From Achatina immaculata (lineage: Eukaryota > Mollusca > Gastropoda > Stylommatophora > Achatinidae), in contig CM019699.1 of the NCBI GenBank assembly GCA_009760885.1, forward strand, positions 44,620,268 to 44,684,267: DNA of 64,000 bases, given 5' to 3'. The notes beneath the pieces were generated by a model. It made no database searches, was not told the DNA's origin, and worked only from the letters and a program-made list of their open reading frames with translations. A program made the translations under genes and the position numbers. Shown in pieces: positions 17,201-23,200 of this stretch (positions within the stretch are counted from its first letter, which is position 1; each line of letters opens with the position of its first letter).

Positions 17201-20200
17201 CAGATTCTCAGATGATGTCCAACTGGACAAATGCACAGACTGTCAGATGATGGACAAACTTCACACACACAGATACACACAGACACATACACACAGAGTT
17301 TATCACATGATGGACAAACTTGACAGACATACACACATTATCAGATGATGGACAAACTTGACATACAGACTGTCACATGACTGACAATGTTGGCACAGTC
17401 TGTCAAATGATGGACAAAACTGACCCTCACATGCAGACTGTCAGATGATGGACAAGCTTGATACAAACACACACAGATACACACACAGACTGTCAGATGA
17501 CAGACAAACTTGATACAAACACACACAGACACACACAGAGAAAATACTCACCAAAGACTTCCGCCTGGACCTTCTGGTGAGCTGTCCATCAGGACTAAGA
17601 GAGAGAGACTGTCGGGCCAGGAAGTTTTCTGGTAGCCTGATATCAGCAGGCAGCGACAGACGTTTGGTCACCTCCTAGACAAGACAACAATTTCTTCACT
17701 CAACTATTTCATACGTAACCAGAAACATATCAAGTATGATCAAATCTTCCAGGATAAATCATACATAGTTTATTAATATTACAGAAATATATGACCTCTT
17801 TCCTCTCTTTAGCATATAGCTGTGAGTTTCCTCTGGTGAGACTGAGAAGCTACTGAGAATAAAGACCCATGGTGAGACACGCTGTGAGTCTTTTATGACA
17901 CATAACAGCACAGGAAGGATGTAAGATGTAAGAAGATGTAAATGTATAGCTATGGCCAGATGATTTTATATTAGTCACATAATACAGTGATCATATCAGA
18001 CAATGTGAACTAGTTTTTTATGCTAAATTGTAATTAGTAAGGTGAACCAGCTGATACAGGCACACCCTGGCTAACCAGGCAGGGATCCAGCTGATACAGG
18101 CACATCCTGGCTAACCAGGCAGGGATCCAGCTGATACAGGCACATCCTGGCTAACCAGGCAGGGATCCCTATGGGAGTGCAACCAGGTACAGTAGCACGG
18201 CACCTTTTCCTGATTCTTGGCTCCTATCAGGGTGTGAAAGGTGCTCGGCCACAGAGATACGCTCCCCATTCAACACAATATTTGTGCTTAAACATCTTCA
18301 GCACATCGCTTTAAACATCTTCAGCACATCACTTTAAACATCTTCAGCACATCACTTTAAACATCTTCAGCACATCACTTTAAACATCTTCAGCACATCA
18401 CTGCAAAGAACATATCTGCTCACAGTTCCAGGGAACATGAACTGAAATGTCACCGTTCAACTTCACCATCAACAAGCAATATAATTCAATAAGGGATGAT
18501 ACTAGTAATTATATGATGATACAGTTAATGAGTAACATGAGATTGATGGAATGATGACATAGTTAATGAGTAACATGAGATTGATGGAATGATGACACAG
18601 TTAATGAGTAACATGAGACTGACGGAATGATGACACAGTTAATGAGTAACATGAGATTGATGGAATGATGACATAGTTAATGAGTAACATGAGATTGATA
18701 GAATGATGACACAGTTAATGAGTAACACGAGACTGACGGAATGATGACACAGTTAATGAGTAACATGAGATTGATGGAATGATGACACAGTTAATGAGTA
18801 ACATGAGACTGACGGAATGATGACACAGTTAATGAGTAACATGAGACTGACGGAATGATGACACAGTTAATGAGTAACATGAGACTGACGGAATGATGAC
18901 ACAGTTAATGAGTAACATGAGACTGACGGAATGATGACACAGTCTGTCAAATGATGGACAAAACTGACCCTCACATGCAGACTGTCAGATGATGGACAAG
19001 CTTGATACAAACACACACAGATACACACACAGACTGTCAGATGACAGACAAACTTGATACAAACACACACAGACACACACAGAGAAAATACTCACCAAAG
19101 ACTTCCGCCTGGACCTTCTGGTGAGCTGTCCATCAGGACTAAGAGAGAGAGACTGTCGGGCCAGGAAGTTTTCTGGTAGCCTGATATCAGCAGGCAGCGA
19201 CAGACGTTTGGTCACCTCCTAGACAAGACAACAATTTCTTCACTCAACTATTTCATACGTAACCAGAAACATATCAAGTATGATCAAATCTTCCAGGATA
19301 AATCATACATAGTTTATTAATATTACAGAAATATATGACCTCTTTCCTCTCTTTAGCATATAGCTGTGAGTTTCCTCTGGTGAGACTGAGAAGCTACTGA
19401 GAATAAAGACCCATGGTGAGACACGCTGTGAGTCTTTTATGACACATAACAGCACAGGAAGGATGTAAGATGTAAGAAGATGTAAATGTATAGCTATGGC
19501 CAGATGATTTTATATTAGTCACATAATACAGTGATCATATCAGACAATGTGAACTAGTTTTTTATGCTAAATTGTAATTAGTAAGGTGAACCAGCTGATA
19601 CAGGCACACCCTGGCTAACCAGGCAGGGATCCAGCTGATACAGGCACATCCTGGCTAACCAGGCAGGGATCCAGCTGATACAGGCACATCCTGGCTAACC
19701 AGGCAGGGATCCCTATGGGAGTGCAACCAGGTACAGTAGCACGGCACCTTTTCCTGATTCTTGGCTCCTATCAGGGTGTGAAAGGTGCTCGGCCACAGAG
19801 ATACGCTCCCCATTCAACACAATATTTGTGCTTAAACATCTTCAGCACATCGCTTTAAACATCTTCAGCACATCACTTTAAACATCTTCAGCACATCACT
19901 TTAAACATCTTCAGCACATCACTTTAAACATCTTCAGCACATCACTGCAAAGAACATATCTGCTCACAGTTCCAGGGAACATGAACTGAAATGTCACCGT
20001 TCAACTTCACCATCAACAAGCAATATAATTCAATAAGGGATGATACTAGTAATTATATGATGATACAGTTAATGAGTAACATGAGATTGATGGAATGATG
20101 ACATAGTTAATGAGTAACATGAGATTGATGGAATGATGACACAGTTAATGAGTAACATGAGACTGACGGAATGATGACACAGTTAATGAGTAACATGAGA

Positions 20201-23200
20201 TTGATGGAATGATGACATAGTTAATGAGTAACATGAGATTGATAGAATGATGACACAGTTAATGAGTAACACGAGACTGACGGAATGATGACACAGTTAA
20301 TGAGTAACATGAGATTGATGGAATGATGACACAGTTAATGAGTAACATGAGACTGACGGAATGATGACACAGTTAATGAGTAACATGAGACTGACGGAAT
20401 GATGACACAGTTAATGAGTAACATGAGACTGACAGAATAATAAATACAGTATAAACTAAACTGAGAAGAGTAAGTGATCATATCTGTGTCATCATCATCA
20501 TCATTATTATTATTATGAGTAGGCTGCTATACAAGAGAATATACAGAAAGAAGAACACAGACGTCCAGCAGTAGTTGGGATCAAATCTCAGAGCTTGCCG
20601 GGTGCCAGCACTCACTGTACCTTAAGAAATTCTTGCAGCAGACACCTGTCCTCGTTTACTGCCTGCTCTAACTGGCAGATATGCTGCTTGCCCCTGGTGC
20701 ACTGCCAGCACAGCTCGTGACCACAGGTCACCTGCAGCTTCTGCTTCAGGGCACGTGGTATATCCCTGGTGCGATTGTAGGAACGAGATCTTCTGCCGCA
20801 GCAGTCAACACACAGCATCGCTCATGGGAACTTAAACACTGTTTTCCCTAAGTCAGATTCTCAATGCGTCTATAAATTTGAGAATGATATTCCAAAATGT
20901 CAACAGGCCTTGCCTAAAATATGTCTGATCAAGGAAACAGGCACCAACTTCATGTCTAATCCTAGGCAAACTTAGGCCATCATGACTCAGCAACAAGCCT
21001 GATCTAAGCTCCTACCAGAAGTCAACACCTTCTGAAGACCAAGACATCAACCATTACCTAACTCTTCTAACACTGATACTGCTGTCTTCATAGCCCCAAG
21101 ACTTATCTCTCTCCATGTCACAGAAGCTCTTATATCATATATCACCGAGATTCTTATATCATATATCACCAAGACTCACATATTTCCAAGACTCATATCA
21201 TATATCACTGAGACTCTTATATCATATATCATCAAGACTTATATCATATATCTCCAAGACTTATATCATATATCACTGAGACTGTTATATCACATATTAC
21301 TGAGACTCTTCTATCATATATCACCAAGACTCTTATATTGTATATCTCCAAGGCTTGTATATTACTGAGACTCATATCATATATCATCAAGACTACTATA
21401 TCATATTTCTGAGACTCTTATATCATATATCACTGGCTCTTATATCATATATCATCAAGACTCATATCATATATCTCCAAGACACATCATATATCACCAA
21501 GACTCTTATATCATATATATCATATGTCACCAAGACACATATTTTCATGCTGCAGAGACATACAACTTATCACAAAGAGACACACAACTTATGCTACAGA
21601 GACTCACAACTTATGTCACTGAGACTCACAACTTATGCCACAGACATACAACTTATGCCAAAGAGACACACAACTTATGCCACAGACACATAACTTATGC
21701 CACAGACATACAACTTATGCCAAAGAGACACACAACTTATGCCACAGACATACAACTTATGTCACTGAGACTCACAACTTATGCCACAGACATACAACAT
21801 ATGTCACTGAGACTCACATCATATGCCACAGACATACAACTTATGCCAAAGAGACACACAACTTATGCCACAGACATACAACTTATGTCACTGAGACTCA
21901 CAACTTATGCCACAGACATACAACATATGTCACTGAGACTCACATCATATGCCACAGACATACAACTTATGCCAAAGAGACACACAACTTATGCCACAGA
22001 CATACAACTTATGTCACTGAGACTCACAACTTATGCCACAGACATACAACATATGTCACTGAGACTCACATCATATGCCACAGACATACAACTTATGCCA
22101 AAGAGACACACAACTTATGCCACAGACATACAACTTATGTCACTGAGACTCACAACTTATGCCACAGACATACAACATATGTCACTGAGACTCACATCAT
22201 ATGCCACAGACATACAACTTATGCCAAAGAGACACAACTTATGCCACAGACATACAACTTATGTCACTGAGACTCACAACTTATGCCACAGACATACAAC
22301 ATATGTCACTGAGACTCACATCATATGCCACAGACATACAACTTATGCCAAAGAGACACACAACTTATGCCACAGACATACAACTTATGTCACTGAGACT
22401 CACAACTTATGCCACAGACATACAACATATGTCACTGAGACTCACAACATATGCCACAGACATACAACATATGTCACTGAGACTCACAACATATGCCAAA
22501 GAGACACACAACTTATGTCACTGAGACTCACAACTTATATCACTGAGACTCGAATTTTCATAATCTAGAAAATACAAACAGTTTGAGGACAGTTCCAGAA
22601 GATACAAAGAGACTAATGACAGCTCCAAAAGATACAGACTAATGACAGTTCCAGCTGATACAGACAAAATGATGACAGTTTTAAAAGATACAATCTGAGG
22701 ACAGACTGACCAAGATAATCCAATATCTATATTTTTGTTAGTTATTATTATTTGATGTGTCATTCAGTGTGGACAATCAAGCTGCTCTACCTTGTGCTGT
22801 CCTTGATGTTTCCAATTCATTCAGGTGCTTTTCTTTTTCCACGCCACTTGGTCAGTCACTGAGATACTTTTCTCTTGACTTTCCTGTCTTCCTTTCCCCA
22901 TGAATTTTCCAGTGATTACTAGGTACTCCAACTTCCGTCTTCTCATGGCACGTCCATGAAATTTTGACTGTCTTTTTCTTATCATTTTAACTAGTTTTCC
23001 TTGTTCTGAAACTTCTATGAGGACCTCTTCCTTTGTCTGTCCAGGATATTTGCCTTCTTTTGCCAAACCACATCTGCTGCTTCCAGCTTCTTTGTCATCC
23101 TTTTTTTGTCAACTGTCCAAGTTTCACAACCACACAGCAATGTTTGCTGTATACTGTAATATTCTTTTCCTTGTTTTTAGGAACATTTTCTTATTAGTTA

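Follow-up and report, generated by a model that had tools for sequence, protein, structure and literature searches.

Exact tandem duplication of a putative control-segment exon in a PCTAIRE kinase gene of Achatina immaculata: a recent event favored over an assembly artifact

We analyzed a window of 64,000 nucleotides from the gastropod Achatina immaculata (GenBank assembly GCA_009760885.1, contig CM019699.1, positions 44,620,268 to 44,684,267), and all positions below are those of this window. Judged by its sequence, a gene on the minus strand encodes a PCTAIRE kinase (CDK16/17/18) of heterobranch gastropod origin; it holds two copies of exon 3 and otherwise looks intact. Each copy is 123 nt long. 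Copy 3B, the first in transcript order, lies at 19096 to 19218, and copy 3A, which adjoins exon 4, lies at 17552 to 17674, both on the minus strand. They are part of a direct repeat in which positions 17394 to 18889 are the same as positions 18938 to 20433 (1,496 nt, 0 mismatches, offset 1,544), a match far beyond chance, which cannot plausibly account for an exact repeat of this length. The original prediction had drawn the duplication at 17395 to 20440, correct to within a few bases of the exact run at 17394 to 20433. Its description of twin exons of 123 nt, identical, in phase 0-0, with intact acceptor and donor and 1,544 bp apart, was borne out, as was its assignment of the gene family and of the exon.

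The duplicated unit of 1,544 bp is arranged head to tail and comprises exon 3 with 158 nt of the downstream intron on one side and, on the other, about 1.2 kb of upstream intron with a terminal 38-bp minisatellite. The first copy spans 17394 to 18937, the final 48 nt of which are extra minisatellite, and the second spans 18938 to 20433. Their minisatellites, at 18513 to 18943 and 20057 to 20432, have their variant units in a like order (ABCDEFDCCCC plus 13 nt and ABCDEFDCCH, respectively) but are unequal in length, with more units in the first copy. At the junction, minisatellite sequence GATGACACAGT abuts the left flank TTGGCACAGTCTGTC, and CACAGT is common to both. This 6-nt microhomology, at 18938 to 18943 on the plus strand, recurs at 17394 to 17399 and within the 38-bp minisatellite units (P of 0.012 against local random breakpoints and 0.004 against wider random breakpoints). 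The count of N across the whole window was 0, so there is no gap between the copies.

Exon 3 encodes 41 amino acids with KRLSLP...RRKSL and corresponds to about residues 113 to 154 of human CDK16. This placement follows from the antibody peptides given for CDK16 in PMC7042329, 114-INKRLpSLPADI-124 for Ser119 and 147-RRLRRVpSLSEIGFG-160 for Ser153. As related in PMC3590450, citing Mikolcevic et al., CDK16 lacking residues 1 to 121 or 1 to 157 does not bind cyclin Y, the Ser153Ala change increases cyclin Y binding, and forskolin-induced phosphorylation of Ser153 accompanies a reduction in the CDK16-cyclin Y complex. According to PMC4613515, cyclin Y activates CDK16 106-476 but not 165-446, and Ser119 and Ser153 are protein kinase A (PKA) sites that generate 14-3-3 consensus motifs, the purpose of such 14-3-3 binding being described as unresolved. 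The control by cyclin Y and PKA that had been proposed for this exon holds insofar as equivalents of Ser119 and Ser153 are present (PMC3590450, PMC4613515, PMC7042329), but the local motif is RRKSL and not the human RRVSL. In the window gene, the N-terminal KRLSLP and RRxSL sites adjoin the kinase domain.

The segment is well conserved in molluscs. Its peptide is identical in Physella and Elysia at 41 of 41 residues, and both KRLSLP and SRRKSL were present in all 13 other molluscan sequences compared, the stretch between them being more variable in the chiton, bivalve, and octopus. A family search scored 7,986 sequences, representatives of 90%-identity clusters, and gave 7,693 hits, of which we examined the best 120. 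The segment motif occurred once in 117 of these and was absent from P0043, P0054, and P0056; a stricter, earlier form of the pattern matched 81 of the 120, none of them twice.

We located the remaining exons by motif, read them out, and compared them by tblastn with proteins of Bradybaena, Physella, and Elysia, as for exon 3. On the minus strand, canonical exon 2 (VVHENPRL...QRRLSE) lies at 49561 to 49697 and exon 4 at 16038 to 16094, followed by exons 5 to 9 (14562-14448, 11543-11449, 11225-11163, 9885-9762, and 9073-8953) and exons 10 to 14 (6853-6650, 6351-6309, 2988-2898, 2755-2678, and 2265-2234); for the last two, the ends were set by eye. The coding sequence stops at 2234 with the tail RRQSMLF. 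The first canonical exon (MKKLKRRLSL in Bradybaena similaris P0001) had no tblastn match within the 64-kb window and may lie outside it. The PCTAIRE helix is at 14449 to 14469, the Pkinase profile matched with an E value of 9.1e-68, and human CDK16 chain 9r2i_C matched the peptide of exons 3 to 5 with an E value of 7.1e-43. Among the matches listed, the closest were B. similaris P0001 (93% identity) and Physella acuta P0002 (91%), and a tree of 14 molluscan sequences placed the window gene within a set of five heterobranch sequences (96/96) whose internal order was unresolved. The intron between exons 2 and 3 also contains, at 22824 to 27038 on the minus strand, open frames that by eye resemble a putative long interspersed nuclear element (LINE)-type retroelement (YADDTVLIA, reverse-transcriptase-like).

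A putative alternative 5′ coding exon (MLCVDCC...EFLK) lies at 20621 to 20818 on the minus strand, upstream of 3B, and ends in phase 0. Its end aligns with the N terminus of Elysia marginata P0007 (44.7% over 38 amino acids; tblastn E value, 7.7e-5), and it contains the Cys/His-rich motif CGHELCWQC. It matched no Pfam family. Since a protein search with this exon gave six candidates, none with an E value of 0.01 or less, and did not recover Elysia P0007 either, its support consists of one tblastn match to a single protein model. That match supports a heterobranch isoform that would begin near exon 3. The “exon 2” of the original prediction, to which no position had been given, may be this exon; canonical exon 2 is 30 kb away.

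Both exon 3 copies have the acceptor TCTAG/GAG and the donor TTG/GTGAGT (the slash marks the splice site), are in phase 0-0, and are flanked by the same intron sequence over 1,215 nt upstream and 158 nt downstream. The introns measure 1,402 nt from the alternative exon to 3B, 1,421 nt from 3B to 3A, and 1,457 nt from 3A to exon 4, and models that start with the alternative exon and contain zero, one, or two exons 3 are all free of stops. Because the splice signals are identical, the length is in frame, and the spacer is 1.4 kb, we predict double inclusion (+41 amino acids) as the default, alongside single inclusion. In the Dmd Dup2 mouse, a duplication of exon 2 is said to be recapitulated at the transcript level (PMC8103086). 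The exon 3 acceptor is the pyrimidine-poorest among 13 internal exon entries (10 of 17 positions; 11 to 15 in the others), which makes partial skipping of exon 3 plausible. The same feature would suit a real but neutral duplication in which most mRNA skips one of the two copies and encodes an unchanged protein. We think this unlikely, given that the splice signals of the two copies are identical and that the exon is presumably constitutive in relatives, as the single motif in 117 of the 120 homologues suggests.

Tandem homologous exons are frequently spliced in a mutually exclusive manner (PMC5224494), and an intronic site at 20481 to 20495, just downstream of the alternative 5′ exon, complements most of the 38-bp units that precede each exon 3 copy and could pair with them. 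The pairing comprises 12 nt exactly and 14 of 15 overall (among 25/31 inverted pairs listed), but, as judged by energy, random cases were as strong at rates of 4.8% (n = 293) and 5.9% (n = 290), and matches of 11 nt, against the 12 nt seen here, were present in 3 of 46 other arrays. We therefore rejected docking or selector pairing as a means of enforcing exclusive splicing, its strength being close to background (roughly 5% of random cases match it). An Rfam scan of 16000 to 21500 gave no match at gathering thresholds. The copies show 0 differences in 123 nt and hence encode no divergent proteins; under exclusive use, whichever copy was chosen, the protein would be that of a single-copy gene. 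Among the mechanisms of exclusion that we considered (a frame shift, a short intron, and strong pairing), none was found: 123 nt preserves the frame, so nonsense-mediated decay could not enforce exclusion, and an intron of 1,421 nt rules out steric hindrance. Mutually exclusive use, which had been raised as one outcome in the original prediction, is thus weak as a proposal, and we consider regulated exons of this kind very improbable. We give hardly any credence to the more elaborate idea that the minisatellite would be a selector array, with RNA pairing to 20481 to 20495 setting one versus two control segments and array length serving as a dial.

The same 64 kb contains three further exact tandem duplications, absent from the original prediction, with units of 1,252, 2,115, and 160 bp. 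The 2,115-bp unit (34623-36741 and 36738-38856) has 0 mismatches in 2,119 nt, a right breakpoint inside a 22-bp minisatellite, and a 4-nt microhomology (P of 0.026 for local and 0.029 for wider random breakpoints). The 1,252-bp unit (1-823 and 1253-2075) also has 0 mismatches, is cut by the window edge, and lies just 3′ of the kinase coding sequence. The 160-bp unit (50185-50345 and 50345-50505) is exactly repeated and precedes canonical exon 2 by about 0.5 kb.

We compared the plus strand of the window with itself, keeping matches that were 100 nt or longer and had 80 nt or more outside the listed arrays. The 15 resulting matches were the four tandem duplications, four pairs of dispersed repeats (90.7 to 95.6% identical), and seven array matches. 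Two of the tandem-duplication alignments overran the ends of the duplications by a few bases and were then 99.6% identical, and the seven array matches set one segment near 43.4 kb against a neighboring 74-bp array at 84.7 to 86.7%. One dispersed repeat of about 330 bp was present at 10293 to 10627, 13544 to 13882, and 44748 to 45120, its pairs being 90.7 to 93.7% identical. The listed tandem arrays add up to about 48% of the window, and we counted 48 separate arrays with periods of 15 to 80 and at least three copies. One of these, a 4.1-kb array of 74-bp units at 45453 to 49555, ends 6 bp from canonical exon 2 and contains exact repeats of up to 484 nt at offsets of 852 and 1,213 to 1,215, which are recent higher-order duplications.

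As the original prediction also allowed, a duplication in such DNA may be an error introduced during assembly or gap filling, in which case the true gene would have one exon 3. False duplications are reported at 4 to 16% of sequence in the older assemblies studied in PMC9516828 and are common in some; that source also describes a homotype class without allelic differences. The signs of falsity that it names are gaps, reduced depth, discordant reads, and one-copy k-mers; here, gaps and sequence differences were assessed. Several of our observations weigh against a real event. There are four tandem duplications outside arrays in 64 kb, none with substitutions (0 in 4,599 nt, which bounds divergence at 0.07% with 95% confidence), and the array content of the window makes it hard to assemble. 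The plus-strand self-comparison found no older, diverged tandem duplication, as an artifact would predict too, and the junction of the 160-bp duplication has 1 nt of homology (P = 0.44). A doubled segment was found in 0 of the 120 best homologues. When the doubled segment itself was used as the query, the top score among the best 120 of 291 hits was 88 bits, for Physella P0002, which has one segment; a truly doubled protein would be expected to score clearly higher. As far as seen, then, the doubling appears private to the window sequence. A structure prediction for P0002, whose exon 3 is identical to that of the window (37 sequences in the alignment), had a mean predicted local distance difference test score (pLDDT) of 54.2 and a predicted template modeling score of 0.45. 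Even the kinase domain was largely below 50 pLDDT, values too low to support any conclusion about the exon 3 segment.

An artifact nonetheless fits poorly with the lack of any N in the window, with microhomology at two junctions of the three that could be tested, and with minisatellites that differ in length between the copies. The allelic substitutions that would mark a heterotype false duplication are missing (0 in 1,496 nt), and minisatellite length is the sole difference. Unequal length without substitutions would fit neither plain reuse of one stretch nor divergent haplotypes, unless the animal was inbred. We regard a false duplication as doubtful, though a serious possibility. Because the duplicate is exact and without N, its junction carries microhomology, and its minisatellites are unequal in length without other differences, we favor a very recent real duplication at roughly two in three, a judgment and not a computed value. 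An older, functional duplication, its copies held identical by gene conversion or selection, would agree with the strong conservation of the exon 3 protein segment, unchanged from Physella and Elysia. We consider it very improbable, since the intron is as identical as the exon, neighboring duplications in which no exons were found are equally identical, and the doubling was not found in relatives among the matches listed.

The full reading that we prefer is a real, very recent tandem duplication, made through microhomology, with both exon copies splice-competent and double inclusion as the default; we put its probability at about 0.5. Either template switching or end joining, at CACAGT between minisatellite-rich stretches, would have produced the duplication in the animal sequenced or in the lineage leading to it, with the change in minisatellite length occurring at the same time or afterwards. 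With both copies spliced in, the kinase would gain 41 amino acids in frame, so that the KRLSLP...RRKSL segment would occur twice. The proximal copy would retain its native place beside the kinase domain, so activation by cyclin Y would probably be kept, and the distal copy is predicted to contribute two additional PKA/14-3-3-type sites. Because the acceptor is pyrimidine-poor, single-inclusion mRNAs encoding the normal protein would probably coexist. The locus would be expected to be unstable and polymorphic in copy number.

If the duplication is real, the window captures a tandem exon duplication at or near its birth, in a mollusc-conserved segment that governs cyclin Y binding in human CDK16, and it would allow a direct test of whether a doubled PKA/14-3-3-regulated linker alters the switch. 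It would also point to one tandem-duplication tendency in a minisatellite-rich genome, yielding units that range in size between tens of bases and 2 kb and are able to capture exons. If the duplication is false, the locus is a clear example that exact duplications in minisatellite-rich genomes need read support before isoforms are claimed. A doubling of kinase control is plausible but unproven, and the companion duplications, the microhomology, and the array load direct interest away from a special kinase switch and toward a general tendency of the genome or the assembly toward tandem duplication.

The type of event is already known; what this analysis adds is the three accompanying duplications, the finding of microhomology at junctions, and the share of tandem arrays in the window, about 48%. 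With the tandem exon duplications of Kondrashov and Koonin (2001) and Letunic et al. (2002), as cited in PMC5224494, the window shares adjacent homologous exons in the same phase with their own splice sites, but its copies and the surrounding intron are 100% identical, and hence newborn or artifactual, with no isoform diversity yet. With CDK16, CDK17, and CDK18 it shares the kinase domain, the PCTAIRE helix, the KRLSLP and RRxSL sites, and the RRQSMLF tail, whereas it has a second genomic copy of the exon with both regulatory sites, and RRKSL in place of the human RRVSL. False homotype duplications (PMC9516828) likewise consist of identical copies side by side, but the window has no gap, a microhomology junction, and unequal minisatellite lengths. 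Disease-type single-exon duplications, such as that of Dmd exon 2, similarly place identical exon copies in tandem with their intron and have been reported at the transcript level (PMC8103086); in contrast to Dmd exon 2, the exon duplicated here is a multiple of three, and its double inclusion would be in frame.

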